Source: Ruficoccus sp. ZRK36 (lineage in GTDB: Bacteria > Verrucomicrobiota > Verrucomicrobiia > Opitutales > Cerasicoccaceae). Taken from it: a stretch of DNA of 64,000 bases. Made by a program: the position numbers and the translations under genes. The stretch spans positions 1,441,501 to 1,505,500 of the forward strand of contig NZ_CP080649.1 in the NCBI RefSeq assembly GCF_019603315.1. Reading direction: 5' to 3'. The notes beneath the pieces are model-generated. The model did not search any database, was not told the origin of the DNA, and saw only the letters and a program-made list of their open reading frames with translations. Positions 14,663-35,166 of this stretch are shown piece by piece. How positions within the stretch are numbered: the stretch's first letter is position 1; every line of letters begins with the position of its first letter.

Positions 14663-14785
14663 GGGCTCTACCTGGGGTAAAGGGTTTGCGCTCCTGTGTC
14701 GTTCCGTCCGACATGAGGCATAATTGTGGTATTAGCTTGACCGCTAAGGGCTTCGGGGTCAAGTCTGCTGCCCTACGTCATTTAT

Positions 14786-14859
14786 GCGGGCGTAGTTTAG
14801 TGGTAAAACCTCAGTCTTCCAAACTGATGATGTCGGTTCGATTCCGTCCGCCCGCACCA
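14786..14859 (+). tRNA. tRNA-Gly (anticodon TCC)
   Basis: A complete cloverleaf can be drawn: acceptor stem GCGGGCG / CGCCCGC, D arm around GTTTAGTGGTAAAAC, anticodon stem TCAGT/ACTGA with loop CTTCCAA (anticodon TCC), T arm with TTCGATT and one T:T mismatch, discriminator A and an encoded CCA. Its 3' part (from 14800) is the left attachment site of the integrated element, and the same 62 bp recur at 36397-36458. Confidence 0.95.
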
Positions 14860-14861
14860 AT
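14800..14861 (+). repeat. attL of the integrated element
   Basis: A 62-bp stretch from GTGGTAAAACC to CGCACCAAT is identical to 36397-36458. Because it lies inside an intact tRNA-Gly, integration restored the tRNA from the chromosomal 5' part. Confidence 0.93.
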
Positions 14862-15507
14862 TGTCGAGATATGGCCAGGCTGCCATTTCCGTGACGGTTA
14901 GCGATTTATAGGATCAATCCTAGGCCAAAAGCTACCTTGGGGTCAAATCACAAAATAATCGTGAAGTGATCGAAAAATGCGCAAAAAGCCGCTATTCTGA
15001 CATGACACTGACATGACACACAGGGGGGCTGGCGTACCTGGATCATACAGGGAATAGGGAACTACCCAGCAGGTTATTCTTTCGCCATCTTCCACCCCAT
15101 TTGGCGGTCATTTTTCAGGCATGCGGGCGTAAATCACGCCGAAAACAAAAACGAACGTGTACCTGGAATATCCTGAAATCCGGGGGGAGAAGCTTTTGGC
15201 GCGTTTTTGAGGGTGCTAAAAAATGGCGATATTTCTGTAAGTGGTTTAATATAAACGGTTAGTGGAAATATTGGCGAGATGCTGGTCTTTCGGAGTGAAA
15301 TTTGAATTACTAAATATTAGTAAAAAATTTCACGTAAAACAGTAATAAAGGAATATTAAGTATAGAAAATGACTAGTTAATTGGTCCTTATTGTCAATAA
15401 CAAGGCCCCCAAATGCGCCCTCGTGGCGCTTATTGCTACTTAGCAGATGGCTCGTGAAATGTTTTGTTCGACCATGGGTGGTAGCGTAGTTATGGATCGT
15501 TTTCGTC
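14862..15507. other. Long non-coding left end of the element
   Basis: About 645 bp between attL and the polymerase gene hold no credible gene and become AT-rich towards the right (15240-15400). A tandem pair of the 11-mer TGACATGACAC is at 14998-15019. The word TACCTGGA occurs twice (near 15033 and 15160) and could be recombinase or Xis arm sites. The polymerase promoter, and possibly an origin, should lie here; none can be identified with certainty. Confidence 0.45.
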
Positions 15508-18021
15508 ATGCCTCAGAAGAAAACCGCCCGTAAATCCGCCAAAATGGCGAAAAAGAAAGTACGCGCGCCGGGCCGTCTGTTTATCCTTGGGTTTGATGCG
15601 GAGTGGGTGCGGGACACTGCGGACACGAACGACAATCAGATACTGAGCTACCAGTGGTATGTGATCAATGGGGACAAGCGTGGCGGAGGGCTGTTTTTGA
15701 CCAAAGATACCGGACGTCTGAGCCTGGAGGCTTTTTTGTCTCGCAGTCTGGAATCCGCCAAACGCAGAAAGCTCTTCTCGCATTACCCGAAGTCAGTCGT
15801 ACTTGTTTCCCATTTTACGCGAGCTGATCTGAGCTCGTTCAGCGACTACCATGACGTTCTCAAGTGCTCCTTTGATAATGTTCGCAAAAGCTACACCAGC
15901 CTGGGAGTTCCTTATAAAGTTACCCTGACGGACAGCAACCATAACCAACGTACGGTGGCTGTAACGCTGAGGGATACCATGCACATCGCTCCGGCTGGCA
16001 GTTCGCTGGAAGCGCTTGGTGACCTGAATGGTATTGGGAAGGTAAACCTTCCGGCTGGAATGATTGCTCACATGGATCAGTTGCTTGAGCAGGATCCCGG
16101 CTTGTTCGAAACGTACGCGGTCAGGGATGCTGAAATCGCCGCCGTGCACGCGCTAAAGATGGCAGAGACATCCGAGGACATGTTTGGCGAGCGTGAAGTC
16201 CCCATCACCCTCGGGGGCATGGGGGTGAAGTACTGTCTGGACCTTTGGCGCAAGGAAGGGGTTAGCTCGTTGGCTGTGCTTGGGCAGCATGAGGTTGAAA
16301 AGACCGTGTATGATCCGAAGACCGGTCGTCAGAAAAAGATAAAAGAGGTGAAGCTGTTGCCCGAGCTTTCGGATAGCGAAAACCTTGTGATCGACTCGTA
16401 TCATGGTGGTCGTAACGAGTCTTTCTACTTTGGAGCGACTCAGGAGGATGACTGGCGGGACATCGACCTGAAGGGGGCCTACTCGACAGCGATGGCGACG
16501 ATCCCTCAACCTGTCTGGAAGAGAATCGAGCACACGACAGACATTGATCGTTACACGCTGGATGCGATGGGCTTTGCTAATATTCAGTTCGTATTCCCAC
16601 ACACTATTCGTTTTCCTGGCTTGGCTGTCCGGCATGATGGGAGTCTGTTCTTTCCCAGGGAAGGTGATACTTATGCAACGGCCCCGGAAATAGCGCTGGC
16701 CCGTGCCCAGGGTGCACGCGTTGAAATCAGGAGCGGCGTGATTGTACCTCTGAATCGCCAGCAATATCCGATTCGTGACATCGTGCTGAAGGCTACGCAG
16801 TCCCGTAACAACGCCAAGACGACACTGGAAAACAAACTCTACAAGGAGCTGATCAATTCCTTTTACGGCAAGTTCGCACAAGGTCTCAGGAACCGCCGTG
16901 GGCTCAATACGCGCACGGGTGAGGTCGAGGACTTGCCTCCGTCCCAGATTACCCAGGCCTACTTCGCGGCTCACATCACGGGGCTGGTCCGTGGTGTACT
17001 TAGCGAGATCATGAATCGCATACCGGAGCCATACGAGGTGATCAGCGTGACGACCGACGGGTTTATTACCAATGCACCGGAGTCGATGACTGATGAGGCT
17101 TCCGGTGGTCCTCTATGCGATATGTTCCGGGATGCCCGTAAGGTGCTTACAGAGGGTGACGATACTATTCTCGAAGATAAGCATCAGGTGCGTCAGGTCT
17201 TGTCGTGGACCACACGTGGCCAGGCAACTCTTAAGGGGGCTGGTGGGCATAAGCCCATTCTGGCAAAGGCAGGCATCAAGGCCCCGAGGGGATATGATGA
17301 GGCTCAGCAGAATCAGTGGATCGTGAATCTGTTCAAGGACCGGGACGAGAACAGCAAGCTGGTGGTATCTCAGCTCAAGGGCATGAGCGCCATGTACCAT
17401 GAAGCGTCGGGTGGTTTGGTGGAACAGCTTAAAGACCGCTCCCTGCGTATGGACTTTGATTTTAAGCGGCAGGTTGATCTGCACAAGAAGGGCATGCTGC
17501 CCATTGACGGGCTGGATCACCTATGGTTCAAGACGCTTCCCTGGCAGCGTATGGAGGACTGCAAAAGGGCTCGTGACACTATCCAGCGGTTTCGCAGTGA
17601 AGAGAAGCGGTGCTTAAAGACTCTCGATGATCTGGACCATTTTCAGCGTTGTTATCAGGCTGCTGCATTGCCCAAGGGGATGCGACGAACGGCGGGAGGA
17701 ACGATGGTCGATGATGCTGTTCGTGTGCTTATCCGAGCGATGATAAAGGAGCAATGGGGCTTGGGGCTCATGGACCGAAGCTATGCGAAATGGTGTGGGT
17801 GGTTCGGCGAGCATGGCTACTCGGTGACGCTTGACCAGTTCAAGAGCGCGGTAAGAGCCGATGTGCCCATGAATGCTATCGAGCTAACCCCGGAGGTGTT
17901 TGGCCTGATTCGCAGGGTTAAGACGGAGTTTCCGGATTTCGATCATAATGCGCTGCTTACGGCCTTGCCTTCTGCTGATGACGAGGGCGATGAATGGCCG
18001 GAGGAAATCTACGAAGAGTAG
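15508..18021 (+). CDS. Family B DNA polymerase, primer-independent (piPolB) type
   Basis: The 837-aa protein has a full set of protein-priming-type PolB motifs. The 3'-5' exonuclease has ExoI D30-A-E32, an ExoII-like HFTRADLSSF (102-111) and ExoIII Y203AVRD207. The polymerase has motif A D320LKGAYSTAM, motif B KLYKELINSFYGK (443-455) and motif C T515TDG518, where most family B enzymes have DTDS. A downstream TTRGQATLKG resembles the Tx2GR-type segment. The TTDG motif C, the size, the absence of a terminal-protein gene and the location in a tRNA-integrated element match piPolBs, which prime DNA synthesis de novo and replicate pipolins. A lysine-rich N-terminus (1-20) may bind DNA. No Shine-Dalgarno. 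Plain protein-primed PolB is the alternative. Confidence 0.87.
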   Translation: MPQKKTARKSAKMAKKKVRAPGRLFILGFDAEWVRDTADTNDNQILSYQWYVINGDKRGGGLFLTKDTGRLSLEAFLSRSLESAKRRKLFSHYPKSVVLVSHFTRADLSSFSDYHDVLKCSFDNVRKSYTSLGVPYKVTLTDSNHNQRTVAVTLRDTMHIAPAGSSLEALGDLNGIGKVNLPAGMIAHMDQLLEQDPGLFETYAVRDAEIAAVHALKMAETSEDMFGEREVPITLGGMGVKYCLDLWRKEGVSSLAVLGQHEVEKTVYDPKTGRQKKIKEVKLLPELSDSENLVIDSYHGGRNESFYFGATQEDDWRDIDLKGAYSTAMATIPQPVWKRIEHTTDIDRYTLDAMGFANIQFVFPHTIRFPGLAVRHDGSLFFPREGDTYATAPEIALARAQGARVEIRSGVIVPLNRQQYPIRDIVLKATQSRNNAKTTLENKLYKELINSFYGKFAQGLRNRRGLNTRTGEVEDLPPSQITQAYFAAHITGLVRGVLSEIMNRIPEPYEVISVTTDGFITNAPESMTDEASGGPLCDMFRDARKVLTEGDDTILEDKHQVRQVLSWTTRGQATLKGAGGHKPILAKAGIKAPRGYDEAQQNQWIVNLFKDRDENSKLVVSQLKGMSAMYHEASGGLVEQLKDRSLRMDFDFKRQVDLHKKGMLPIDGLDHLWFKTLPWQRMEDCKRARDTIQRFRSEEKRCLKTLDDLDHFQRCYQAAALPKGMRRTAGGTMVDDAVRVLIRAMIKEQWGLGLMDRSYAKWCGWFGEHGYSVTLDQFKSAVRADVPMNAIELTPEVFGLIRRVKTEFPDFDHNALLTALPSADDEGDEWPEEIYEE

Positions 18022-18167: not shown

Positions 18168-19202
18168 TTAATTCCAGTTCTTCCCGATGTTGTAGGCGAT
18201 GATGCGGGCCAGCCGATCCGGCATATACATACGGCTGTAGCTCAGGCGCCTACCATCTGAGCTGTTGAAATAAATCTGGGTCTGGTGGACGGTGGTGCTG
18301 GTCTTGTTGATGTCCCGTGGGCGAGCGTTGTTCATGGTCACGCCCGTGGGATTGGTTGGCTGGATTCTGACTTTCGCCTGCGCGGCAAACTTCTTCTTGA
18401 GTCCGAAGAAATCGACCGTGTTGGCATCGAATAAATTCCAGTGGCTGGTCGGTATTTCTGAAAGCTGGCTGGTACGTATGCACTGTACGGCAACGATCTG
18501 TTCGCTGCGATCTACGAGCAGTCCGAGCGTGTTGTAGCCGCTCAACTGTTCCAAATCATCATATCCTTGTGCGTAGCGATACTCGGCCCGTACCGGAAAC
18601 AGCCACAGGCGAAAGGAGTTTTCGGGGAAGCCGTCTGTAATGACGACTTGGGATTTCCCGATCTCCAGAGCATCATACAGTCGGTCTCTGACGACCTGCA
18701 GGGGCTCCAGGTAATGAATGCCCTGATAGATCACGGATGCCTGGTCCAAGAGATCCCCATACAGCCAGGTCTGATCGAACTCCATCACCGAGAGGAAACT
18801 CATGGTCAGTTGTTGCTTCAGCAGATGTGTCAGGTCGTTAATCGTGGTATTGTCCAGTCCGGCATGAGCGTTTTCGCGGTCCCAGTTCTTGTCGAGGTGA
18901 AGGAATGCAGTGGGGCAATTGCTTATGATCGCTTGCTGCGTTTCGAGCGATAAGTTTTCGAGGGGAACGGTGTATTCGCGGTCGACATGCTCGGGGATGA
19001 GTCGGACCTCTTTACCATCATGGCCGATAATGTGGGCCGTGATTTTGCGTCCGTCAGCCGCGACGATCTCAGCGTGGTAAGGATCGAAAACTGTGGTGCT
19101 GTTTGCTTCAGGTGTCTGCTCTGTTGGCTGGGTGGCACTGAGGGGCCCGGCCAAGGCTATGCAGAGCAGGGCTGAAAGCGTGAGATACTGTGAGCTCATC
19201 AT
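18168..19202 (-). CDS. Secreted hypothetical protein of the element
   Basis: The 344-aa product has a signal peptide (SSQYLTLSALLCIALAGPLSA) and no further membrane segment. Residues about 45-85 (AADGRKITAHIIGHDGKEV followed by VPLENLSLETQQAI) look like a small SH3-type beta domain resembling SHD1-like segments of planctomycete and verrucomicrobial exported proteins; that comparison is from memory and weak. The remainder is not recognised. Two adjacent ATGs allow a start at 19202 or 19199. It reads leftwards, converging with the polymerase gene, and follows 19216-19539 by 13 bp, so the two form a small operon. Its role in a mobile element is unknown. Confidence 0.65.
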   Translation of the reverse strand: MMSSQYLTLSALLCIALAGPLSATQPTEQTPEANSTTVFDPYHAEIVAADGRKITAHIIGHDGKEVRLIPEHVDREYTVPLENLSLETQQAIISNCPTAFLHLDKNWDRENAHAGLDNTTINDLTHLLKQQLTMSFLSVMEFDQTWLYGDLLDQASVIYQGIHYLEPLQVVRDRLYDALEIGKSQVVITDGFPENSFRLWLFPVRAEYRYAQGYDDLEQLSGYNTLGLLVDRSEQIVAVQCIRTSQLSEIPTSHWNLFDANTVDFFGLKKKFAAQAKVRIQPTNPTGVTMNNARPRDINKTSTTVHQTQIYFNSSDGRRLSYSRMYMPDRLARIIAYNIGKNWN

Positions 19203-19215
19203 CCACTCCAGAGAT

Positions 19216-19539
19216 TCAAGAGTCTCTCACAAAACCGACAGTTCTCTTCGGACGGGATCGCCGGAATAAATAGAAGGATAGTCCACCGGTTGCCAGCGTG
19301 GCAAAGATCAGTGCCCGGTTCAGATAGGCGAGCTTCTGACTCGTCTTCACGAGCTCGTCGGCGGGGTCATCGCCGGTAAACATCCAGTTTAAAAGCCTAA
19401 ACGCCGAGGCACTAGTTGACTCATCCTGTAGTTCCATAAATTCATCGTCTACACTCGTCTTGGCAGGCCCTGATATAAAGACGATCGTGAAGGCAAGCCC
19501 GAGGGCAGCAAACAGGAGAACAACGGCGGCGATTCGCAT
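19216..19539 (-). CDS. Small membrane protein with two helices
   Basis: A 107-aa product with an N-terminal hydrophobic helix (IAAVVLLFAALGLAFTIVFI, residues 3-22) and a second one near the C-terminus (ALIFATLATGGLSFYLF) followed by a basic RRSRPKR tail. The acidic loop between them (DDEFMELQDESTS) probably lies outside the cytoplasm. I recognise no family. It is the first gene of a leftward pair with the secreted protein at 18168-19202, so the two may act together at the envelope. Confidence 0.55.
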   Translation of the reverse strand: MRIAAVVLLFAALGLAFTIVFISGPAKTSVDDEFMELQDESTSASAFRLLNWMFTGDDPADELVKTSQKLAYLNRALIFATLATGGLSFYLFRRSRPKRTVGFVRDS

Positions 19540-19597: not shown

Positions 19598-19870
19598 GTG
19601 GGTAATTCACTGACTGAACTAGGTGCTCGATTACGGCTCTTGAGGGCCAAGCATAACCTGACGCAGGAGGAGTTCGCGCAACTGGCGGGCATCGGCTATA
19701 AGTTCTATCAGCAGATCGAAGGAGCCCGAAAGAAAGAGATCTGGCTATCTACCGTGGAACGTCTCGCCGCCCCCTATGGGCTTCGTGCCTGGCAACTCTT
19801 GGCCCCCACCATGCCCGAGGGCTCCAAGCTGATCCGCAAAGCACCCAGTAGTCGGGTGCATCGACGGTGA
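19598..19870 (+). CDS. Small XRE-family HTH protein
   Basis: The 90-aa protein consists of one Cro/CI-type helix-turn-helix (residues 7-62: ARLRLLRAKHNLTQEEFAQL, with a recognition helix around YKFYQQIEGARK) and a basic tail ending SSRVHRR. It starts with GTG; the closest upstream ATG (19587) is followed by a stop after one codon. It stands alone between the leftward membrane operon and the non-coding region before the restriction cassette, and probably regulates one of them. Confidence 0.7.
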   Translation: MGNSLTELGARLRLLRAKHNLTQEEFAQLAGIGYKFYQQIEGARKKEIWLSTVERLAAPYGLRAWQLLAPTMPEGSKLIRKAPSSRVHRR

Positions 19871-20186: not shown

Positions 20187-20441
20187 ATGTCATCACCTTG
20201 TACTACAGCGATGCCTGATGCCGAAAGCTTACCCGCTCTTGTTAAGTCCATGCGAAAACAGCTCGGACTGAGTCAGGAGGGTCTCGCGAGAGAGATTGGT
20301 GTCAGCTTTTCAAGCATTAGCAGGTGGGAAAGCGGCAAAACCGTACCTATGCCCCTGCAACGCAGTCAGCTGAATCGGTTCTGCACCAAAATGTGCAAAA
20401 AAGGACTGCTGGATCTGTCTGCTTTCAATTTCGATTCGTAA
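20187..20441 (+). CDS. XRE-family regulator of the restriction cassette
   Basis: The 84-aa protein has one classical helix-turn-helix: LVKSMRKQLGLSQEGLAREI, then GVSFSSISRWESGKTVP (residues about 16-52). The C-terminal part is short and basic with two cysteines. It lies 13 bp upstream of the res gene and behind a perfect palindrome, so it likely acts like a controller (C) protein of the restriction-modification system. The frame could also start at ATG 20211, but the 20187 ATG gives the better spacing to the palindrome. Confidence 0.75.
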   Translation: MSSPCTTAMPDAESLPALVKSMRKQLGLSQEGLAREIGVSFSSISRWESGKTVPMPLQRSQLNRFCTKMCKKGLLDLSAFNFDS

Positions 20442-20454: not shown

Positions 20455-23400
20455 ATGTCAGAGCCCTTTTTCGAGCATCCCATTCTCAACTCCCCCTACG
20501 GATATCCCTCCCGCCATTGGGAGTTGGATTCGGAAGGACAGCCCACTCAGAGGATAATCGATAGCCGTCGTATCGCGGACTTCATGACTCCCATCCCCAA
20601 GGCTAAGAAGCGAAAGGGGAAATCTGAGCAGCGAGAACTCGTCATGGATGAAGGCGAGGGTATTTCCACCGTTGAACAGCAGTACACGAAAACAAACATC
20701 AATTCACTGCGTAAACGCGTAAATGAGTGGCGTAGAATCGCTGACCCCGCCCAATGGAAAGTAACACCTGAAACCGCTCGGCTTCTCCAGCACTGGCGGC
20801 ATCACGCCTTCAACGACATCCGCCCTTTCTTTTGTCAGGTCGAGGCGGTCGAAACTCTAATCTGGTTAACTGAGGTCGCCCCCAAGGAGGGAAACATCGG
20901 CAAGGGCTTTCTCGACCACCTAAATCGAGCCAACCAAAATGCGAACCCTGAACTGCTGCGCACAGCCCTGAAACTCGCTACCGGTGCAGGCAAGACGACT
21001 GTCATGGCGATGATTATCGCCTGGCAGACCATCAATGCCGTTCGTCGTCCAACCAGTAAACACTATACACGGGGATTTTTAGTCGTGGCACCGGGCATCA
21101 CCATTCGGGACCGACTGCGTGTACTGCTCCCCAATGACACCGAGAGCTATTACAAGAACCGGGAGTTGGTCCCGCCCGATATGCTCAAGGAACTCGGTAA
21201 GGCCAAGATCGTCATCACAAATTATCACTCCTTTAAATTGCGTGAACGTATGGAGTTGTCGAAAGGCAACCGGGCTTTACTCCAGGGACATGGTGATGCG
21301 CTGAACACATTGGAGACGGAGGGGCAGATGCTCCAGCGAGTCATGCCCGATCTGATGGGCATGAAGAATGTGATGGTACTCAACGATGAAGCTCACCATT
21401 GCTATCGCGAAAAGCCAGGAGAGGATGACACTTCAGACTTGAAGGGCGAGGAAAAGAAAGAAGCGGAGAAAAACAACGAGGCTGCACGTCTATGGATCAG
21501 TGGGCTTGAAACCGTGAAGCGCAAGCTTGGGCTCAATCGGGTTGTTGACCTTTCTGCGACTCCCTTTTTTCTGCGTGGTTCGGGTTATGCCGAGGGCACA
21601 CTGTTCCCATGGACGGTTTCTGACTTTTCCCTCATGGATGCCATTGAGTGTGGTATCGTCAAGCTGCCCCGTGTTCCCATTGCCGATAACATCCCCGGTG
21701 GCGACATGCCCATGTTCCGTAATCTGTGGGAACACATCAAAAAGAAGATGCCGAAGAAGGGTCGGGGCACGGGTGCCACCCTCGACCCAGAAAGCCTGCC
21801 TACGCCCCTTAAAACAGCCCTCGAAGCGCTCTACGGTCACTACGAGCAGACCTTTGAACTATGGGAGAAAAAGAAGCTGGGGGTACCTCCCTGCTTCATT
21901 GTTGTCTGTAACAACACCGCGACCTCCAAGCTCGTTTACGACTATATCTCAGGTTACGAGCCTGAGGAAGATTCAACCAAGCCGACAATCCGAGGCAGGC
22001 TGCCTCTATTTGACAACTTCAACGAGCACGGGGAGCCCCTGTCTCGCCCCAACACGCTCCTCATCGATAGCGAACAGCTGGAGTCCGGAGATGCGCTTGA
22101 CGATAACTTCAGAAAAGTGGCGTCTACTGAGATCGAACGCTTTAGGTATGAAATTGTTGAACGAACTGGCAATCAGGATGCTGCCAACAATTTGACGGAT
22201 CAGGACCTCCTGCGTGAGGTTATGAACACCGTTGGAAAGCCGGGGAAACTGGGAGCGTCGATTCGCTGTGTCGTTTCCGTATCCATGCTGACGGAAGGTT
22301 GGGATGCAAATACCGTTACCCACGTACTCGGTGTCCGCGCCTTTGGTACGCAATTGCTTTGCGAGCAGGTGATTGGTCGCGCATTGCGTCGCCAATCCTA
22401 CAACCTCAACGAGAAGGGACTTTTCGATGTCGAGTATGCGGATGTTTTGGGCATTCCCTTTGACTTTACGGCAAAGCCCGTGGTTGCTCCACCGCAACCC
22501 CCACGTAAAACGACACATGTCCATGCGGTCCGCCCGGATCGGGATGCTTTGAAGATCAGCTTCCCCAGGGTATCTGGCTACCGCGTAGAGCTACCTTCGG
22601 AACGCTTGAGCGCGGATTTTAATGAAGGCTCGACGCTGGAGCTTACACCGGACCTCGTCGGGGCAACGAGAACCGAGTCTCGTGGTATTATCGGCGAAGG
22701 GGTTGACCTCAATCTCGTGCATACTGGTGATCTGCGCAGGTCCACTTTGCTGCTGAATCTTACCCAGCGACTCCTCTACACCAAATACCGCGATCCCGGC
22801 GATGAGCCCAAGCTGCACCTATTTGGTCAATTAAAGCGAGTCACACGTGAATGGCTAGACGAATATCTGGATTGCAAGGGCGGTACCTATCCAGCCCAGC
22901 TCATGTATCAGGAGATAGCAGATATGGCCTGTGAGCGTATCGCGGCAGCGATATCCCGAGCAGGCATGAAGTCGCAGGGAGAGCGCATCATCAAAGCGCT
23001 ACTGGACCCCTACAATCCCACTGGATCGACATCACAGGTCAGCTTCAGAACATCCAAAGAAGACCTCTACCAGACAGCGGTAAACCGGTGTCACGTGAAC
23101 TGGGTCGTACTCGACAGCGATTGGGAGGCTGAGTTCTGCCGGGTCGCAGAGAACCACCCACAGGTGCTGGCTTACGTGAAAAATCACAATCTAGGCCTTG
23201 AGGTCCCGTACCGCTTCCATGCTGAGAACCGTAAATACATCCCGGACTTCATCGTTCTTGTCGATGATGGGCACGGCCCGGAAAACCCGCTCCACCTGAT
23301 TGTCGAGATCAAGGGTTACCGCCGTGAGGACGCCAAGGAAAAGAAATCCACCATGGACAGCTACTGGGTCCCTGGCGTTAACAATCACGGTATCTATGGC

Positions 23401-23547
23401 CGCTGGGCATTCGCTGAATTTACCGACGTCTGGGAAATGCAGGACGATTTTGAGAAAAAGGTATCGGGATTTTTTGACGAGATGATAAAACACGCCACCT
23501 CGGATGGGCCAAACAGTACGCCAATCGAAACGCATCAAAATGCCTGA
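20455..23547 (+). CDS. Restriction endonuclease helicase subunit (Res, type III-like)
   Basis: This 1030-aa SF2 helicase-nuclease would translocate and cut unmodified DNA. Visible motifs are Walker A TGAGKTT (176-182), motif II D311EAH314, motif III LSATPFF, and motif VI QVIGRALRRQSY. The C-terminus carries a PD-(D/E)XK nuclease core: PDFIVLVDD, then LIVEIKGYRRE with E-x-K. The architecture is that of type III Res subunits and of the BPTD_3080-type stand-alone family. The matching methyltransferase is at 25251, with a regulator gene between them; classical type III operons have mod first. The stop codon overlaps the start of the next gene (ATGCCTGA), which suggests translational coupling. Confidence 0.9.
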   Translation: MSEPFFEHPILNSPYGYPSRHWELDSEGQPTQRIIDSRRIADFMTPIPKAKKRKGKSEQRELVMDEGEGISTVEQQYTKTNINSLRKRVNEWRRIADPAQWKVTPETARLLQHWRHHAFNDIRPFFCQVEAVETLIWLTEVAPKEGNIGKGFLDHLNRANQNANPELLRTALKLATGAGKTTVMAMIIAWQTINAVRRPTSKHYTRGFLVVAPGITIRDRLRVLLPNDTESYYKNRELVPPDMLKELGKAKIVITNYHSFKLRERMELSKGNRALLQGHGDALNTLETEGQMLQRVMPDLMGMKNVMVLNDEAHHCYREKPGEDDTSDLKGEEKKEAEKNNEAARLWISGLETVKRKLGLNRVVDLSATPFFLRGSGYAEGTLFPWTVSDFSLMDAIECGIVKLPRVPIADNIPGGDMPMFRNLWEHIKKKMPKKGRGTGATLDPESLPTPLKTALEALYGHYEQTFELWEKKKLGVPPCFIVVCNNTATSKLVYDYISGYEPEEDSTKPTIRGRLPLFDNFNEHGEPLSRPNTLLIDSEQLESGDALDDNFRKVASTEIERFRYEIVERTGNQDAANNLTDQDLLREVMNTVGKPGKLGASIRCVVSVSMLTEGWDANTVTHVLGVRAFGTQLLCEQVIGRALRRQSYNLNEKGLFDVEYADVLGIPFDFTAKPVVAPPQPPRKTTHVHAVRPDRDALKISFPRVSGYRVELPSERLSADFNEGSTLELTPDLVGATRTESRGIIGEGVDLNLVHTGDLRRSTLLLNLTQRLLYTKYRDPGDEPKLHLFGQLKRVTREWLDEYLDCKGGTYPAQLMYQEIADMACERIAAAISRAGMKSQGERIIKALLDPYNPTGSTSQVSFRTSKEDLYQTAVNRCHVNWVVLDSDWEAEFCRVAENHPQVLAYVKNHNLGLEVPYRFHAENRKYIPDFIVLVDDGHGPENPLHLIVEIKGYRREDAKEKKSTMDSYWVPGVNNHGIYGRWAFAEFTDVWEMQDDFEKKVSGFFDEMIKHATSDGPNSTPIETHQNA

Positions 23548-25096
23548 TACCCCCGCCAACTTAAAGCTTCGGATCTTTATCAGCTCTGTCCAGAAGGAGC
23601 TGACGGAGGAGCGTATGCAGTTGAAGGTGCTCCTCGGCTCAGATCCGTTTTTGCTCCGGCATACCGTTCCTATGCTTTTTGAGAAGTATCCGGCTGCCCT
23701 CAGACCAGACGATCAGGCTTACCTCAAGCTGCTGGCAAAGTGTCAGATTTACGTCCTCATTATCGGAAAAGAATATGGTACCGTAGCCAAAGGTGGGCTC
23801 TCGGCAACTCATCTTGAGTATGACTTTGCGCAACAGCGTCAGATGCCGACTCTAGTCTGTGTCAAAGGTGATCGTAGCTTCCATCGAGAGAAGAAGGAGG
23901 ATGATTTCTTTGATAAGGTCTGCCATGATGCCCACACCTACAGTCGTTTCAACAATATCAACGAATTGCAGGACGTCGTCCGGGAAAGGCTCATTGAGCA
24001 CATAAATGAAAACTACGAGCTAACGCCTTCCAGAGACGACAAGGCAATTGCCGAGGCTACCTTATCAGTGGCATCGCTCTTTGATCGGCAGCGCGTGCTC
24101 CGCCCGCTGAAAGACCTCAAGACTGCCCATCTGACATCACTTGCTCAGGCACTTGATCCCGAGTCACGCAAGACGCTGAAGCCTGCTGAACGCGAACAGT
24201 TGCTCTTGAGCCGTGGATATATATGGTTCGACAACAAAGAAGGGGCATCGCACCCGACCGCTGCCGGGATGATGTTATCAGCCAAGGACCCGACCGCAGA
24301 GTTCCCGCAAGCACGCGTTCAGCTTGATATCTATAAGGGCAAAACCCGCAATGATGAGGCGGTAATCGCACAACCCATTCACCAGAACATCCCTGACGCT
24401 ATTGATACGATAGTCGCAACCATTTATCAGAATACTCGAAAGACGCCGCGAGTCGTGGGGCTGAAAAGGCTGGAACTTCCTGAATACCCGGAGGTCGCCC
24501 TACGCGAAGCACTCGTGAATGCGTTGGCACACCGTGACTACGAGGATCAGTCTCAACGTGTCTTCGTCGAAGTCTTCTTTGATCGGATTGTGGTGACAAA
24601 CCCGGGCAAGCCAGTTGGTCACCCTTCAATGAAGAAGCTCGAGGAAGGTAAGGCTCGTTCACGGTCTCGCAACCCCCTGATTTCTCAAGGCTTGGTGTTC
24701 TTGAAACGAATGGAAGAACGCGGTACCGGCATCCGTCGTATGCGGGGGGCGATGCTGGATTATGGGCTCGACGCGCCACATGTCGAACTCGATGAAGATC
24801 GCTTTGTGCTGACGCTGCCTGGCCCCGCAGAACACCTCGACCGCATTAAGGCACCTGTTGCGGAAACCGAAGCGCTGCCCGCATCCGTTACCGATGAGCT
24901 GAACAAACGTCAGCAAGGGATTCTCGAACTAGCCATACGGAGTGGCGAGGTGACCAATCGTCAGGTTCAGGAGAGTTTTGAGGTAGCTCGGGATACTGCC
25001 CACCGTGATCTGACCATTTTGTGCGAACTCAACCTATTACTGAAAGAAGGAAGTGGGCGCTCAACTCATTATACTCCCGTAAGCCGTGAAAGCTAA
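23540..25096 (+). CDS. DUF4062 / ATP-binding / winged-helix regulator
   Basis: The 518-aa protein combines three parts. Residues 10-90 match a DUF4062 module (RIFISSVQKELTEERMQL, then YVLIIGKEYGT, then SATHLEYDFA). A COG2865-type ATP-binding domain of the HATPase_c_4 kind is at about 305-410 (EVALREALVNALAHRDYEDQ and RGTGIRRM). A C-terminal winged helix lies at about 453-510 (NRQVQESFEVARDTAHRDLT). Such proteins are common between restriction-modification genes, usually as predicted transcriptional regulators. The ATG at 23540 overlaps the res stop by 8 bp; an upstream GTG/ATG at 23504 is possible but lies inside res. The repeat array just downstream (25094-25227) is a candidate binding region. 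Confidence 0.82.
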   Translation: MPDTPANLKLRIFISSVQKELTEERMQLKVLLGSDPFLLRHTVPMLFEKYPAALRPDDQAYLKLLAKCQIYVLIIGKEYGTVAKGGLSATHLEYDFAQQRQMPTLVCVKGDRSFHREKKEDDFFDKVCHDAHTYSRFNNINELQDVVRERLIEHINENYELTPSRDDKAIAEATLSVASLFDRQRVLRPLKDLKTAHLTSLAQALDPESRKTLKPAEREQLLLSRGYIWFDNKEGASHPTAAGMMLSAKDPTAEFPQARVQLDIYKGKTRNDEAVIAQPIHQNIPDAIDTIVATIYQNTRKTPRVVGLKRLELPEYPEVALREALVNALAHRDYEDQSQRVFVEVFFDRIVVTNPGKPVGHPSMKKLEEGKARSRSRNPLISQGLVFLKRMEERGTGIRRMRGAMLDYGLDAPHVELDEDRFVLTLPGPAEHLDRIKAPVAETEALPASVTDELNKRQQGILELAIRSGEVTNRQVQESFEVARDTAHRDLTILCELNLLLKEGSGRSTHYTPVSRES

Positions 25097-25250: not shown

Positions 25251-28037
25251 ATGCCACGCAAGAAAGCCAGCAAGACAGTCACTAAGAAGCAAGTGGAGGC
25301 GCTCACGCACGAGGATGCCAGCCGCAAAAACATTCCCACGGCGGAGTATGAGTCGGTCATGGAGGCTGCGCAGGCGGCACCGAAGGAGCTGCGCTACCCG
25401 CGCAATACGGACCTCGACCCGCAGCTCGTATGGCGGGGTAAGGATGAGCAGGACTGGTCCGACCTCGTTGTGCAGGCACCGCCGCTTTACATCCAGGAGA
25501 AGGTACACCCCAAGGTGCTCATCGAGGATCTGATGCGCAAGACCGAGCGCGAGGAGACGGGCTACGATCCGCAGATGGACTTCTTTGGCGACTTCAATGG
25601 TATCCCCGAGGGCGCGGACAAGACCGAGTTCTACCAGCACGACGCCAACTGGACCAACCGCATGATCCTCGGCGACAGCCTGCAAGTCATGGCGTCACTG
25701 GCCGAGCGTGAGGGGCTGCGCGGGCAGGTGCAGTGCATCTACCTCGACCCACCGTACGGCATCAAGTTCAACAGCAACTTTCAGTGGTCCACGACCTCTC
25801 GCGATGTCAAGGACGGCAAGCAGGAGCACATCACCCGTGAGCCCGAGATGGTCAAAGCCTTCCGCGATACCTGGCGCGACGGCATACATACTTACCTCAC
25901 CTACCTGCGCGACCGCCTGACCGTCTGTCGCGATCTGCTTAGCGAATCCGGCTCTATCTTCGTACAGATCGGCGATGAAAATGTTCACCGAGTGCGGGCT
26001 TTGCTTGATGAGGTCTTTGGAGATGAAAACCATGTAGCGGACATTGTTTGCCTAAAAACGAGCTCCCAGACATCCGGACATTTAGCCGGCATAGCAGACT
26101 ATGTTCTCTTTTACGCTAAAAAGAAAGATGCTCTAAAATACCGACAACTAAATCAAAAGAAGGTATTAGGAGAAAAGGGAACCACTCAGTATGTCTGGCA
26201 ACTTTCTGATAACCTTGAGGAATCGCGCATTCAAAAGGGAGAAGAACCAGATGGAGCAGTATTTGCTGCAGACAATCTAGCTAGCCAGTCCGGAGGACAG
26301 ACGACTCGCTTTGAATATCAAGTAAATGGTAAAAAGTTCCGTGTCACTCGGGGAGGTTGGAAAACTAATCTCCAAGGCATGCAAAGGCTAGACAAGTCCT
26401 TCCGGTTAAAGCCAATCGGAAATACTTTGATGTATAGGCGCATACTTTCGGATTATGGAGTATATCCTATCGCAAATGTTTGGGATGACGTTCTCGCCAC
26501 AGGATTCTCAGAACAGAAAATCTATGTAGTGCAAAGCTCTCAAAAGTTGATAGAACGCTGCATCCTCATGGCCACCGATGCCGGTGACCTTGTCCTCGAT
26601 CCAACCTGCGGCTCTGGAACGACCGCCTACGTTGCTGAGCAATGGGGGCGACGCTGGATCACGATTGACACCTCACGCGTTGCCCTGGCCTTGGCGCGGG
26701 CACGCATCATGGGAGCGAAGTACCCGTACTACCTGCTAAAGGACTCCGATGAAGGCCAGCAGAAGGAAGCCGAGCTGACCCGCAGCGCGAAGTCAGAGGT
26801 CGCCACTTACGGGAACGTCCGCCAGGGCTTCGTTTACGAGCGTGTGCCACACATCACGCTGAAGGCCATCGCCAACAACGCCGAAATCGACGTCATCTGG
26901 GAAGATTACCAGACGCGCCTCGAACCGCTTCGCGAGCAGCTAAATCAGTCACTTGGTAAGAACTGGCAGGAATGGGAAATCCCCCGCGAGGCGGAGAAGG
27001 GTTGGCCAGCCGAAGCGAAGAAGCTCCATGAACAATGGTGGGAGCAGCGCATCGCCCGGCAGCGTGAGATCGACGCCTCCATCGCCGCCAAAGCCGACTA
27101 CGAGTACCTCTACGACAAGCCCTACGAAGACAGAAAAAAGGTGCGTGTGGCCGGTCCGTTTACCGTCGAAAGCCTCTCGCCGCACCGCGTACTGGGCGTC
27201 GATGAGGATGATGAGCTGATCGACCCGCTGGAAGTCAAGGAGCCCGGCGATCAGTTCAGCCAGCAAAAGTCTTTCGCCGAGATCATTCTGGAAAACCTCA
27301 AGACGGCGGGCGTCCAGCAGGCCCACAAGGAAGACAAGATCAACTTCACCACCCTACAGGCCTGGCCGGGAGACCTAGTCTGCGCCGAGGGTACCTACTC
27401 CGAAGGCGAAGACGGTGTGGAAAAACGCGCAGCCATCTTCATCGGCCCGGAGTTTGGGACCGTCGCCCGTGCCGACCTCGTCCAAGCTGCCCGAGAAGCC
27501 GGTGACGCCGGGTTCGATGTCCTGATCGCCTGTGCCTTTAACTATGAGGCCCGCACGACGGACTTTGACAAGCTCGGACGCCTCCCCGTGCTCAAGGCCC
27601 GGATGAATGCCGACCTCCACATGGCCGACTCCCTCAAGAACACGGGCAGCGGCAACCTGTTCGTCATCTTCGGCGAGCCCGACATCGAGCTACTGCCCGA
27701 CCACCACGACATGGTGCGCGTCAAGGTCAACGGCGTGGATGTCTTTAAACCCCAACTGGGCAAGGTCGAATCCTGCGACGCAGACGAGATCGCCTGCTGG
27801 TTCATCGACACCGACTACAACGAGGAGAGCTTCTTCGTCCGGCACGCGTACTTCCTCGGGGCCAGCGACCCCTACAAGAGCCTCAAGACCACCCTCAAAG
27901 CCGAAATCAACGCCGACGCCTGGGACTCGCTCTACAGCGACACCAGCCGCCCCTTCCCCAAACCCAGCAGCGGCCGCATCGCCGTCAAAGTCATCAACCA
28001 CCTCGGCGACGAGGTCATGAAGGTGTTTAGAGTGTAA
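25251..28037 (+). CDS. Type III-like DNA methyltransferase (Mod), adenine-N6
   Basis: It modifies the host's own DNA and gives the restriction system its specificity. The 928-aa protein has motif IV D166PPY169 before motif I DPTCGSGTT (450-458), the beta-class order of type III Mod proteins. The target-recognition region between them (about 262-440) is encoded by visibly AT-richer DNA (26034-26570) than the GC-rich flanks, which suggests exchange of specificity by recombination. The C-terminal 470 residues (EYLYDKPYEDRKKVRVAGPF, then FNYEARTTDFDKLG) are the extension typical of stand-alone res/mod pairs. No Shine-Dalgarno; it follows the repeat array and precedes the OLD-type gene by 14 bp. 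Confidence 0.92.
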   Translation: MPRKKASKTVTKKQVEALTHEDASRKNIPTAEYESVMEAAQAAPKELRYPRNTDLDPQLVWRGKDEQDWSDLVVQAPPLYIQEKVHPKVLIEDLMRKTEREETGYDPQMDFFGDFNGIPEGADKTEFYQHDANWTNRMILGDSLQVMASLAEREGLRGQVQCIYLDPPYGIKFNSNFQWSTTSRDVKDGKQEHITREPEMVKAFRDTWRDGIHTYLTYLRDRLTVCRDLLSESGSIFVQIGDENVHRVRALLDEVFGDENHVADIVCLKTSSQTSGHLAGIADYVLFYAKKKDALKYRQLNQKKVLGEKGTTQYVWQLSDNLEESRIQKGEEPDGAVFAADNLASQSGGQTTRFEYQVNGKKFRVTRGGWKTNLQGMQRLDKSFRLKPIGNTLMYRRILSDYGVYPIANVWDDVLATGFSEQKIYVVQSSQKLIERCILMATDAGDLVLDPTCGSGTTAYVAEQWGRRWITIDTSRVALALARARIMGAKYPYYLLKDSDEGQQKEAELTRSAKSEVATYGNVRQGFVYERVPHITLKAIANNAEIDVIWEDYQTRLEPLREQLNQSLGKNWQEWEIPREAEKGWPAEAKKLHEQWWEQRIARQREIDASIAAKADYEYLYDKPYEDRKKVRVAGPFTVESLSPHRVLGVDEDDELIDPLEVKEPGDQFSQQKSFAEIILENLKTAGVQQAHKEDKINFTTLQAWPGDLVCAEGTYSEGEDGVEKRAAIFIGPEFGTVARADLVQAAREAGDAGFDVLIACAFNYEARTTDFDKLGRLPVLKARMNADLHMADSLKNTGSGNLFVIFGEPDIELLPDHHDMVRVKVNGVDVFKPQLGKVESCDADEIACWFIDTDYNEESFFVRHAYFLGASDPYKSLKTTLKAEINADAWDSLYSDTSRPFPKPSSGRIAVKVINHLGDEVMKVFRV

Positions 28038-28051: not shown

Positions 28052-29824
28052 ATGAAAATTAAGTCCATTAACATCAAAAACTTTCGCAGTATCCAGTCTG
28101 CATCTCTGACCCTAAGTAATTTAAATGTCTTTGTTGGGAAGAACGATTCTGGAAAGTCAAATCTCCTCAGGGCGCTAAATCTCTTCTTTAATGATGGCAA
28201 CGGATATGAACTCGATTGGGATCGTGACTTCTGTAGTTTCGCTCAAGTGGCAAAACGAAAAGCGCCAGAGATTCAAATGACACTCGTTATAGAGCCTTCC
28301 GCTGGCTTTAATGACCGAAAGCGTGTCAAGTGGGATAAGTATTGGAGACGGGGTGGACTCCATTACCAAGACGTTAAATATATCGACAATAAAGCCCTCT
28401 CGGGTAAAAGCAAAATTCCAGCATTGATACATTCTGCACGGTTAGACTATGTGCCCGCAACCAAAGGTGATGACTACTTCTCGGAGTTACTCGCATCGAT
28501 ACATGACATGCTGGAGAAGACGGTTGAGGTAGACATTCGGAAAGCTGCTGAAAATTTTACGAAAGCAATCAATAGCCACACAACGCCTATCGTTGCGGAT
28601 ATTTTTGAGAAGCTTTCAATGACTTCCAGTATTGGCCTCCCCTCAAACTTACGTGACTTGTTTTCACGCTTGCAGTTTTCATCGGAAGATAATGGCCAGC
28701 GTTTTTCTCTGGAGCAGCGAGGCGATGGGATCAAAGCCAGGCACATTCCCATAATACTACGCTGGCTTGCGAAACAAGCCGAGACATTAAGCGCCCCAGG
28801 TCGTCCCAAGGTTGTCTCCCTTTGGGCATACGAAGAGCCTGAAAACAATCTAGAAATGTCAAGTTGTCTTGAGCTTGCGAATGAAATGCTTGCTGACAGC
28901 AGGCATATTCAAACATTTGTCACCACTCATGCGCCTGCCTATTACTCAGTAGCGACTGGCGCTGCACAAGGAGACGTCTCGATTTTTGGGGTTACGAAAG
29001 ATTCTTCTAGTGGAAAGACCTCCATTGAGCAGTTGGATCGGACGGAACTACAAGACATCGACCAATCCATGGGACTCATGCCACTTGTTGAGCCCTACCT
29101 AAGCAATGCCTTAGATAGGATTCATGAACTGGAACAGATCAAGGTACAACTTTCCTCCTATGACAAGCCAACAGTATTCGTCGAGGGTCCAAGCGATAAG
29201 GCTCTGCTAGAGATTGCGATAAAGCTGTTTTTCTCATGGGCGAAAGACCAGCTAAGGATTGAATGCTCTCAGGAAAATGGAGGGGGACATACATGGGTGT
29301 CTGAGCGAATAATTGCATGGGGGCATATGCGATCAAAGTATAAAGCCATCGGATTATTTGATAGGGATGCTGATGCTATTGAATCTCGAAAAGAAGCTAC
29401 AGGGGTGCTTAAGCATAGGAATGGTCACAACACCAGTTACGTACACATAGAGCCAAACGATTACCTGAAACCTATTTTGGCAAAGAAAATCAATGTTCCA
29501 TACTCCGTGGATGAGTTATTTCGGGAAGTTGACTGGGATCATGCTGAGCAGCAGGGATGGCTTGTTGAGCGATCAGACAAAATTGCACTACTCTACAATT
29601 ATGGAGATCCCAACCAGTCGTTTAACGAATTCTTAGAGGAAAAGCTGCCCTGCCCCAAAGCCCGCAGAATTGTCACAAAGAAAATACATAAGCATAAAAA
29701 AGAAGCGTTCTGCAAGTATCTGTGTGCTCTTCCTGAGGGGCAGAGTAAAGAGGCCTTTGAGGGCCTTAAAGCAACTGTCGATAAGGTTTTAGATAAATTA
29801 GGTATAAATATATACGGATTCTGA
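28052..29824 (+). CDS. OLD-family ATPase/TOPRIM endonuclease (GajA-like)
   Basis: The 590-aa protein has an SMC-like ATPase: Walker A G29KNDSGKS36 after IKNFRSIQSA, a signature-like RGDGIKA (223-229), Walker B LWAYEEPENN and a TTHAP H-loop (291-295). A TOPRIM nuclease domain follows: FVEGPSDK with E378, then a late acidic cluster FDRDAD (D437/D439/D441). This is the architecture of OLD nucleases. Followed directly by a UvrD-like helicase it matches class 2 OLD, that is GajA of the Gabija anti-phage system. Its DNA is more AT-rich than mod or the next gene, so it probably came separately. No gene lies between it and the helicase; stop and start codons are adjacent. Confidence 0.85.
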   Translation: MKIKSINIKNFRSIQSASLTLSNLNVFVGKNDSGKSNLLRALNLFFNDGNGYELDWDRDFCSFAQVAKRKAPEIQMTLVIEPSAGFNDRKRVKWDKYWRRGGLHYQDVKYIDNKALSGKSKIPALIHSARLDYVPATKGDDYFSELLASIHDMLEKTVEVDIRKAAENFTKAINSHTTPIVADIFEKLSMTSSIGLPSNLRDLFSRLQFSSEDNGQRFSLEQRGDGIKARHIPIILRWLAKQAETLSAPGRPKVVSLWAYEEPENNLEMSSCLELANEMLADSRHIQTFVTTHAPAYYSVATGAAQGDVSIFGVTKDSSSGKTSIEQLDRTELQDIDQSMGLMPLVEPYLSNALDRIHELEQIKVQLSSYDKPTVFVEGPSDKALLEIAIKLFFSWAKDQLRIECSQENGGGHTWVSERIIAWGHMRSKYKAIGLFDRDADAIESRKEATGVLKHRNGHNTSYVHIEPNDYLKPILAKKINVPYSVDELFREVDWDHAEQQGWLVERSDKIALLYNYGDPNQSFNEFLEEKLPCPKARRIVTKKIHKHKKEAFCKYLCALPEGQSKEAFEGLKATVDKVLDKLGINIYGF

Positions 29825-31909
29825 ATGAACTTCCTGATATCCAGTACCTTCAACGACAGCCTCACCAAGCTTACGGGCGAGGAGCAGAAGGCCGTCAAGA
29901 CGACTGCCTTTGATCTGCAAATGAACCCGGCGAATCCGGGGATGAAGTTTCATCGCGTTGATCGGGCCAAAGACAAGAATTTCTGGTCCGTACGGGTGAG
30001 CGGTGACATCCGCTTGATTGTCCACAAAACCGGGGACAGCTTGCTGCTTTGCTATACCGATCACCATGACAATGCCTACCACTGGGCGGAGCGCCGAAAG
30101 CTGGAGACGCACCCCAAAACCGGGGCCGCTCAGATTGTCGAAATCCGCGAGACAGTGCAGGAAGTCTTTGTGCCTCAGTACGTCGAGGCAGCGGAACCTC
30201 AGCCCGAGTTTAAGAAATCAGCACTCTTTGCAACGCATAGTGAGGACGAACTGCTCGGGTATGGAGTTCCCCCCGAATGGCTCGCTGATGTGAAGCAGGC
30301 CGATGAGGACTCACTACTGGCCTTGGCAGATCACCTGCCCGAAGAGGCGTCTGAAGCCTTACTGGAGTTGGCCACTGGCGGCACCCCTGTGGTTGCTTCC
30401 TCAGTGACCGACGAAGCCGCTACCGACCCGTTTGAGCATCCGGATGCCCGCCGCCGCTTCCGCGTGATGACCAATGTCGAGGAGTTGGAGCAGGCCTTGG
30501 AATATCCATGGGAGAAATGGACCGTCTTCCTACACCCAACCCAGCGCGAAGTCGTCGAGCGCGATTACTCCGGGCCCGTTCGTGTCTCCGGTACAGCAGG
30601 GACGGGAAAGACCATCGTAGCACTGCACCGTGCCGTTTACCTGGCTCGCAAGCACCCTGACGCCCGTGTCCTGCTGACGACCTTTTCCGAGGCACTCGCC
30701 CAATCGCTTCGTGTGAAGCTGAGGCGCTTACTCGTCAGTCAGCCTTCTCTGGGGGAGCGTATTGACGTCGAGTACATGGATGCCGTTGGTAAACGCCTGT
30801 ATGAGCGTAATGTCGGTAAGCTGCGCCTGGTTGATGCTGAGACGGTTTGCACTCTGTTGAAGGAGGAAGCCGAACGAAACGGTCTGGAGGGTTATAGTCT
30901 CTCGTTTTTGAACTCAGAATGGGAACAGATCGTGGACGCTTGGCAGTTGGACTCATGGGAAGCGTATCGTGACGTCAAACGCCTTGGACGAAAATCTAGG
31001 TTGAACGAGGCCAAACGCGAACAGCTCTGGGCAGTATTCTCGTCTGTGCAGCAACGCTTGAGTGATGATTCAGTGTTAAGCAAGTGCGGCATGTTTTCTC
31101 AGTTGGCTCACCAGTTGGGGAAATCGAGTCGTACGCCTTACGACTTCACGGTTGTTGACGAAGCACAAGACATCAGCATTTCACAGCTACGTTTTTTGGC
31201 AGCACTGGGAAGCCACCGGGCTGATGCACTGTTTTTCACCGGCGATCTTGGTCAACGCATTTTCCAGCAGCCATTTTCGTGGAGCAGCCTAGGAATAAAT
31301 ATCCGGGGAAGGTCCAAGACGCTGAGGGTGAATTACCGCACCTCACACCAGATCCGTGCCCAGGCTGACCGGTTACTTGACCCGGAAATATCAGACATGG
31401 ATGGGAACGTGGAGAAACGTACGGACACCATTTCGGTATTTAATGGTCCAGCTCCGGCTCTATCGACTTTCGATTCTCAACAGGATGAAATTGACGCTGT
31501 TGCCTCAAAGCTAAAGGAGTGGGTTGCTGATGGTGTCTTCCCACATGAAATCGGTATTTTCGTGCGCTCAGAGAACGAAATTCCGCGAGCACTGAGTGCG
31601 ATAGAAACCTCAGGGCTGATGCACCAGCTACTTTCAGATTCCTTTGAATCAAGGTCGGGCAAAGTAGCTGTCAGCACCATGCACTTGGCGAAGGGTTTGG
31701 AGTACCGTGCAGTCATCGTCATGGCCTGTGATGACGAAGTGATGCCAAGCCAGGAACGAATTGAAGCAATCGGTGACACAGCAGACTTAGAGGATGTCTA
31801 CAATACAGAGCGCTACCTGCTGTATGTTGCCTGCACTCGTGCCCGGGATTATTTGATGGTTACAAGTGTTGAACCCGCCTCTGAGTTCCTCGATGATCTT
31901 TTGCTGTAG
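29825..31909 (+). CDS. UvrD-like SF1 helicase with RelE-like N-terminus (GajB-like)
   Basis: The 694-aa protein begins with about 92 residues resembling RelE/ParE-family toxins (STFNDSLTKLTGEEQKAV, then FWSVRVSGDIRLIVHK). A helicase follows: Walker A GTAGTGKT (256-263), motif II VDEAQD, motif IV RVNYRTSHQIR, motif V STMHLAKGLEYRAV and motif VI LYVACTRAR. Gabija GajB is a shorter UvrD-like protein of about 500 aa without the RelE part, so this is a variant or a distinct OLD-UvrD pair. Whether the N-terminus still acts as an RNase is unknown; it may instead contact DNA or RNA. The start codon directly follows the TGA of the OLD-type gene. It is the last gene of the rightward cargo block; a terminator lies at 32061. 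Confidence 0.85.
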   Translation: MNFLISSTFNDSLTKLTGEEQKAVKTTAFDLQMNPANPGMKFHRVDRAKDKNFWSVRVSGDIRLIVHKTGDSLLLCYTDHHDNAYHWAERRKLETHPKTGAAQIVEIRETVQEVFVPQYVEAAEPQPEFKKSALFATHSEDELLGYGVPPEWLADVKQADEDSLLALADHLPEEASEALLELATGGTPVVASSVTDEAATDPFEHPDARRRFRVMTNVEELEQALEYPWEKWTVFLHPTQREVVERDYSGPVRVSGTAGTGKTIVALHRAVYLARKHPDARVLLTTFSEALAQSLRVKLRRLLVSQPSLGERIDVEYMDAVGKRLYERNVGKLRLVDAETVCTLLKEEAERNGLEGYSLSFLNSEWEQIVDAWQLDSWEAYRDVKRLGRKSRLNEAKREQLWAVFSSVQQRLSDDSVLSKCGMFSQLAHQLGKSSRTPYDFTVVDEAQDISISQLRFLAALGSHRADALFFTGDLGQRIFQQPFSWSSLGINIRGRSKTLRVNYRTSHQIRAQADRLLDPEISDMDGNVEKRTDTISVFNGPAPALSTFDSQQDEIDAVASKLKEWVADGVFPHEIGIFVRSENEIPRALSAIETSGLMHQLLSDSFESRSGKVAVSTMHLAKGLEYRAVIVMACDDEVMPSQERIEAIGDTADLEDVYNTERYLLYVACTRARDYLMVTSVEPASEFLDDLLL

Positions 31910-33477: not shown

Positions 33478-33733
33478 GATGAGGCTGACTGTTATGTTTA
33501 CGTTTTATCCGGCGCTGCGGGTTCAGGTGCTTATACCTGGCCGCCCGCACGATGCTGCAGCCCCAGATGAGGGAACAGGCGACCGAGCATCCCCCGACCC
33601 AGTAGAGGGCATGGGCCAGTGGCAGGAGGACGGGTTGCTCGACCGGAGGAGGTGAGGGTGGCTCGTCGTGGTCGTTGAGCATAAAAATGCCCGCGCCCAC
33701 GCTGATCACGGTGATGAGGATGGCCTGGATCAT
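33461..33733 (-). CDS. Small membrane protein in nuclease operon
   Basis: A 90-aa product from the ATG at 33731-33733, which overlaps the nuclease stop codon as ATGA. It has an N-terminal helix (MIQAILITVISVGAGIFML), a proline-rich acidic linker (DHDEPPSPPPVEQP), a second helix (HALYWVGGCSVACSLIWGC) and a basic histidine-rich tail. A longer frame starts at 33778 but lies inside the nuclease gene. The topology of two helices with a basic cytoplasmic end recalls phage holins; this is only a shape resemblance. Confidence 0.55.
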   Translation of the reverse strand: MIQAILITVISVGAGIFMLNDHDEPPSPPPVEQPVLLPLAHALYWVGGCSVACSLIWGCSIVRAARYKHLNPQRRIKRKHNSQPHHECRP

Positions 33734-35024: not shown

Positions 35025-35058
35025 GAGGAATCCTTTCGAATGCGACCGTGTGGGTACG

Positions 35059-35094: not shown

Positions 35095-35166
35095 TCTGAT
35101 AGCAAGAACGTCCCGCTATCACGGATATATAACGCAGGTCATATGGTTTTTGCGCAGGGGAGGGGG

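Follow-up and report, generated by a model that had tools for sequence, protein, structure and literature searches.

A probable primer-independent DNA polymerase gene in a pipolin at a tRNA-Gly gene of the verrucomicrobial species Ruficoccus sp. ZRK36

Introduction

Which type of family B DNA polymerase (PolB) is encoded at positions 15508–18021 of a 64,000-nucleotide stretch of the chromosome of Ruficoccus sp. ZRK36 (contig NZ_CP080649.1, positions 1,441,501 to 1,505,500; hereafter the window), and what sort of DNA carries its gene? A preliminary description of the locus, made from the sequence alone, had proposed a primer-independent PolB (piPolB) of a new lineage. Based on alignments, a phylogenetic tree, a predicted structure and the surrounding genes, we consider it highly probable (about 0.86) that the gene codes for a piPolB, i.e., a proofreading replicative PolB that would start template-dependent synthesis without a primer, and that it belongs to a complete pipolin inserted at a tRNA-Gly(TCC) gene of this Verrucomicrobiota chromosome. 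According to the literature, pipolins carry tyrosine recombinases as well as restriction-modification genes, and their attachment (att) repeats overlap a tRNA gene (PMC7385651, PMC9710591). Elements of this kind are already known; what is new here are the host phylum and the apparent exchange of integrases.

The polymerase gene and its conserved residues

The gene (15508–18021, plus strand) is a single open frame of 837 codons with an ATG start and without an internal stop, and the genome to which it belongs (G000) contains no second copy. The 837-aa product matched the Pfam family DNA_pol_B_2 with an E value of 7.4e-10. It contains a 3'-5' exonuclease domain with the residues D30, E32, D156, Y203 and D207 (motifs D30/E32 and Y203/D207), followed by the polymerase residues D318 and D320, the latter within DLKGAYS, then K446, N450, G454 and K455 in the stretch KLYKELINSFYGK at 443–455, and motif C, which reads TTDG at 515–518. 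Further residues are K558/H559, R570 and D651/K653, which are conserved among piPolBs, and a C-terminal part extends past the core shared with the phi29 polymerase. The preliminary description had listed a full set of exonuclease and polymerase motifs together with the TTDG sequence, and both statements were borne out by the intact frame, by the alignment and by 33% identity to an E. coli pipolin polymerase (see below).

The same description had regarded TTDG as a piPolB trait, which holds insofar as the sequence is usual in the family. Motif C was TTDG in 66 and VTDG in two (both from Fusobacterium) of the 68 piPolB-like rows used for our tree, compared to CDTDS in phi29 and PRD1; part of this row set had been gathered using a TDG pattern, and the nine rows gathered without it (L004–L009, L011, L012 and L017) showed TTDG seven times and VTDG twice. 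The trait is not diagnostic alone, because the first aspartate of motif C is also replaced in a separate cluster, PolB_SITDG (Kazlauskas et al. 2020, PMC7544198), and we therefore rejected motif C by itself as proof of a piPolB. In all 68 piPolB-like rows, including the Ruficoccus protein, 14 residues are invariant (D156, G300, D318, D320, Y325, R433, K446, G454, T516, D517, G518, K558, R570 and D651). At K558 and D651, phi29 shows a gap in the same alignment, and its residues differ at D318, R433, G518 and R570.

A further position bears on whether the enzyme still starts de novo. The stretch known from other rows as KTRG-like reads TTRG in the Ruficoccus protein; its first position is T in nine, K in 40 and R in 17 of the 68 rows. 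It may be imagined that the protein is a piPolB by descent in which de novo initiation was lost or weakened, and whose main role is now that of a primed, damage-tolerant polymerase or of a gene that benefits the host. The biological role of piPolBs is still unclear according to the authors of ExplorePipolin (PMC9710591), which leaves room for such a function. The retention of the invariant residues, the intact gene and the completeness of the element around it argue against such a loss, and we regard a weakened initiation as improbable. To our knowledge, only distant relatives of the Ruficoccus piPolB have ever been tested.

Ahead of the exonuclease domain, 42% of 24 residues are lysine or arginine. 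This is the top value among the piPolB rows, and the median is 13% over the 69 rows with at least 10 such residues, with the outgroups included and the starts of the other rows placed only roughly. The lysine-rich N-terminus, pointed out earlier as unusual, is thus indeed exceptional within the family.

Family placement and predicted structure

In BLASTP comparisons, the protein aligned with the pipolin polymerase of the enterotoxigenic E. coli strain H10407 (866 aa) over 820 columns with 33% identity (418 bits, E 2e-137), and with the PolB of the S. epidermidis plasmid pSE-12228-03 with 156 bits and 27% identity over the shared part; S. epidermidis is one host of plasmid pipolins (PMC9710591). 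The H10407 polymerase is located on the chromosome (L017, 5247–7847) and is annotated as a "hypothetical protein". The pipolin of this strain is reported to adjoin a myovirus prophage (PMC7385651), and the neighbourhood of the polymerase, which within about 25 kb includes recombinase genes as well as phage genes of the P2 family, is consistent with this location.

A tree was calculated by a quick method from 72 rows and 866 columns, comprising the 68 piPolB-like rows and the polymerases of phi29, PRD1, ABV and T4; casposon PolBs were not included. Of the 91 rows that contained a piPolB-like frame, 23 had been removed manually because they were duplicates, near-duplicates or fragments, although one of these (L080, Candidatus Hydrogenedentota) covers nearly the full length and might have been retained; a broken copy from the genome G001 never entered. 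In the best tree, the Ruficoccus protein grouped with seven other Verrucomicrobiota proteins. This group of eight rows received a value of 91 in the Shimodaira-Hasegawa-like approximate likelihood ratio test (SH-aLRT), which is below the starred level, and contains an unresolved inner fork. It was nested in a branch of 55 rows together with proteobacterial piPolBs including that of E. coli (SH-aLRT 98), within a piPolB branch of 66 rows (SH-aLRT 86) that leaves out both Fusobacterium rows. The latter represent plasmid-encoded polymerases (L008 and L011) with VTDG in place of TTDG. The identity of the Ruficoccus protein to the 38 other piPolBs of a separate alignment (A3, mostly proteobacterial) was 29–36%, and that to the piPolBs of its own phylum was 32–36%. 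Because these ranges are about the same and the branch support is moderate, the proposed "new lineage" is only modestly supported and applies as far as a Verrucomicrobiota branch is meant, whereas membership in the family is well supported by the full-length similarity, the conserved residues and the complete pipolin surrounding the gene.

An AlphaFold model based on 39 aligned sequences reached a mean predicted local distance difference test (pLDDT) score of 90.3, with the basic tail (residues 1–21, pLDDT below 50) and stretches past residue 820 predicted as disordered. The closest solved fold by both Foldseek and VIA-align 2 was the phi29 DNA polymerase, with a Z score of 22.1 and 506 aligned residues covering residues 24–647 of the model, and the first entry below the phi29 structures scored 13.9. 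The residues past about 650 fall outside this phi29-like core. Sequence searches found no solved piPolB structure.

The integrated element and its boundaries

The left end of the element is formed by a 62-bp exact direct repeat, attL (14800–14861, plus strand), and the first large gene to follow is that of the polymerase. The repeat comprises the last 60 bases of a tRNA-Gly gene with the anticodon TCC (14786–14859, plus strand) and two further bases. The tRNA gene serves as the putative integration site and still reads as complete. The second copy of the repeat, attR, forms the right end of the element (36397–36458, plus strand), and no further copy exists in the 3.76-Mb genome. Between the limits of the repeats the element measures 21,659 bp, and its GC content of 0.536 contrasts with 0.602 on the left and 0.578 on the right side within the window. 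On the left side of attR, at a distance of 60 bp, lies the start of a gene (35167–36336, minus strand) for a predicted tyrosine recombinase/integrase of 389 aa, in which the signature R ... HxxR ... Y can be recognised by eye.

The genomic context of relatives agrees with an insertion at this site. The tRNA-Gly(TCC) gene adjoins the same PulF-like gene in seven of seven relatives fetched, and in another species of the genus (G003) about 120 bp lie between it and a homologue of the window from 42057 onwards, the element being absent. At the same tRNA-Gly gene, the relative G002 carries an insertion of about 2.6 kb (L114, approximately 14843–17474) whose far end bears a 33-bp copy of the att core, which suggests that other elements use this site as well.

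As to the nature of the element, no phage structural gene was present among the element proteins scanned against PHROGs, a set that did not include the Res, HATPase and Mod proteins described below; a phage or prophage origin was rejected on this basis. No Cas1 was found among the element proteins scanned.

Observations against the pipolin assignment and the alternative of protein priming

Several observations weigh against the assignment to a complete pipolin. The product of 35167–36336 matched the PHROG integrase family phrog_1 with an E value of 1e-15, but the curated integrase models fit it weakly: the NCBIfam model XerD matched with 5e-8, well under the curated cut-off, and the Pfam match was sub-threshold. 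The species lacking the element (G003) also lacks the 5.6 kb to the right of attR (36459–42056), and therefore the empty junction is not base-exact. This stretch is a difference separate from the element; it has a GC content of 41–44% in parts, carries small hypothetical genes and genes for a PEP-CTERM protein and a sulfatase, and is possibly the remnant of another insertion. The other relatives contain other sequence at the same point, 1.9 kb in G001 and the above-mentioned 2.6 kb in G002. Neither a uracil-DNA glycosylase (UDG) nor an excisionase was matched among the element proteins scanned, with some small open reading frames lying outside the scan. Finally, the approximately unbiased (AU) test did not reject a topology in which the Ruficoccus protein and the four outgroup polymerases share one side (p 0.101). 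With outgroup branches as long as 3 to 5 changes per column, what is at issue here is most likely the position of the family's root, which may sit on the branch of the Ruficoccus protein. The alignment and tree suggested in the preliminary description thus placed the protein among the piPolBs in the best topology, and left the outgroup side open in the AU test.

The last result is also of interest for the alternative of a protein-primed polymerase of the phi29, PRD1 or casposon type acting with an unrecognised terminal protein, in line with a predicted fold nearest to the phi29 polymerase. The family scans of the element proteins recognised no terminal-protein gene, just as none had been visible before, but this is weak evidence because terminal proteins are poorly conserved and diverge fast. 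Arguments against protein priming come from the polymerase itself, which scored only 35 bits with PRD1 and 26 bits with phi29 against 418 bits with the E. coli pipolin enzyme, which carries TTDG instead of the DTDS of these two polymerases, and whose C-terminal part past the phi29-like core holds residues conserved among piPolBs. Moreover, the element is bounded by direct att repeats, one of them overlapping the tRNA gene, and no exact inverted 11-mer is common to the regions 14700–15508 and 35900–36600, as would be looked for in terminal inverted repeats. Taken together, protein priming appears very unlikely, and we continue with the assignment to a piPolB.

Proposed life cycle and cargo genes

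For a pipolin of this kind, the recombinase would excise the element as a circle by recombination between the att sites, and the excised circle could be reinserted at the tRNA-Gly gene by the same enzyme. The piPolB would copy the excised DNA by de novo initiation and strand displacement, and it may also help to tolerate damaged DNA. Primer-independent synthesis by the Ruficoccus polymerase itself is likewise what we infer.

The genes between the polymerase and the integrase begin with two hypothetical proteins without a family match, one of 344 aa with a signal-peptide-like N-terminus by eye (18168–19202, minus strand) and one of 107 aa which is probably a membrane protein, again by eye (19216–19539, minus strand). 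They are followed by two Xre-type helix-turn-helix regulators identified by family scan (19598–19870 and 20187–20441, both plus strand) and a type III-like restriction-modification system. This consists of a ResIII-type helicase with an endonuclease domain as the putative restriction subunit (20455–23547, plus strand; weak match to REase_III in PADLOC) and a type III DNA methyltransferase, Mod (25251–28037, plus strand; MTase_III in PADLOC, 1385 bits). Between the restriction and methylation genes, the gene for a DUF4062 and HATPase_c_4 protein (23504–25096, plus strand) represents an unusual third partner for such a system.

Further downstream, an OLD-type AAA ATPase (28052–29824, plus strand) and a UvrD-family helicase (29825–31909, plus strand) are encoded. 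In PADLOC, the ATPase matched AriA first (E 2e-27) and others including GajA (1e-17), mainly in its N-terminal part, and the helicase matched C3a187 (NERD+UvrD) first (E 7e-29), followed by GajB (2e-24). Calling this pair "Gabija-like" is fair but not proven, because AriA and C3a187 outrank GajA and GajB. Together with the restriction genes, the pair may repay the carriage of the element by shielding the host from phages. The remaining genes code for a DUF932 protein found by family scan (32209–32979, minus strand), a RecB/Cas4-like PD-(D/E)XK nuclease (33730–34551, minus strand) and a 185-aa protein of unknown function (34548–35105, minus strand); the last two have homologues of 37% and 43% identity, respectively, in another Verrucomicrobiia piPolB locus (L062).

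Related loci in Verrucomicrobiota

A search of the genome contigs with the single protein yielded no relative, but an alignment-based search found 134 related stretches, the best 80 of which (77 loci) were used; the empty first search was therefore a matter of method. No relative was present in 50,697 phage records at an E value of 1e-5, and four loci of viral_contigs encode one. Of 387 genomes of the phylum, four matched by single protein and five by profile (one with a fragment), with Ruficoccus sp. ZRK36 being contained in both counts. Among 88 genomes searched, piPolB occurred only in this strain and in G001 of the same genus, whose copy (L002/L003, contig C57, 3.7 kb) shows 45–54% identity and is broken by stops and a frame break.

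Near the polymerase gene, a conserved protein of 590–674 aa is encoded in five loci from four genomes, namely L120 and L121 (G244), L122 (G318), L126 (G098, of the same class as Ruficoccus and by inference from Verrucomicrobiota) and L027. Two of these proteins were scanned (one G244 copy and that of G098) and showed resolvase, recombinase and zinc-ribbon domains, which identifies them as large serine recombinases; the others are their homologues by BLASTP. No homologue of the Ruficoccus integrase was detected in any fetched piPolB locus at 1e-6. The stretches from G098, G318 and G244 (35–60 kb) contained neither a homologue of this integrase nor an exact direct repeat of at least 20 bp spanning the piPolB gene, few such repeats existing there at all, and their two tRNA genes (Thr and Ile) had no repeated copy of at least 16 bp. 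Likewise, no repeat of at least 13 bp was found for the tRNAs in the stretches examined of L037 and L059.

The occurrence of a serine recombinase in five loci and of a tyrosine recombinase in Ruficoccus suggests that polymerase and integration module travel apart; the elements that carry this polymerase branch seem to use two integration systems unrelated to each other. Such a loose link between polymerase and integrase would also fit a passenger role, in which the 21.7-kb island is mobilised by its integrase like any ordinary island of this type, and the piPolB takes no part in its replication. Conversely, two genes from the integrase side of the element, those for the nuclease and the 185-aa protein, recur in the piPolB locus L062, which speaks against this role. 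We consider a mere passenger unlikely, if less so than a weakened initiation, and favour a polymerase that takes part in the replication of its pipolin. On a broader scale, it is conceivable, at somewhat less than even odds, that the Verrucomicrobiota possess an old piPolB branch of their own, which may lie close to the family root, and that the elements of this branch kept the polymerase, swapped the integration module and act as carriers of phage-defence genes.

The hosts of piPolBs and pipolins listed in PMC7385651 are Actinobacteria, Firmicutes, Proteobacteria and mitochondria, and the Ruficoccus locus adds a phylum absent from that list, with a pipolin whose two ends are both defined and a sister species free of the element. 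A literature search on piPolBs in Verrucomicrobiota turned up no paper, but its coverage was limited and it says little about the print record. Verrucomicrobiota pipolins may already be in print, as a 2024 survey reportedly treated pipolins as defence carriers. As a member of a divergent branch, the enzyme would be useful to test which residues permit primer-free synthesis, and it represents a candidate reagent for primer-free whole-genome amplification.

Comparison with known systems

A near counterpart is the pipolin of E. coli H10407, which shares with the Ruficoccus element a polymerase of full-length homology with the same motifs including TTDG, a chromosomal location and tyrosine recombinases nearby. 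In E. coli pipolins, the att repeats likewise overlap a tRNA gene and restriction-modification genes are frequent. The two systems differ in the tRNA gene used (tRNA-Leu in E. coli, tRNA-Gly in Ruficoccus), in the phylum of the host and in the polymerase sequence at only 33% identity; moreover, UDG and excisionase genes are frequent or recurrent in E. coli, whereas none was recognised among the Ruficoccus proteins scanned. The polymerase of S. epidermidis pSE-12228-03 (L009) also shows the piPolB motifs and TTDG, but it is a protein of 1109 aa with a longer N-terminus, and it is encoded on an 8-kb circular plasmid with a relaxase gene and a gene of the recombinase family (resolvase-type). The other Verrucomicrobiota loci (G244 twice, G318, G098/L059, L027, L037 and L062) are nearest in the tree with 32–36% identity, and those of G244 (twice), G318, G098 and L027 differ by the large serine recombinase nearby. 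The phi29 DNA polymerase resembles the Ruficoccus enzyme in its exonuclease and polymerase fold, but their sequence similarity is barely detectable, and the phage enzyme has DTDS as motif C, is primed by a terminal protein and replicates a linear genome.
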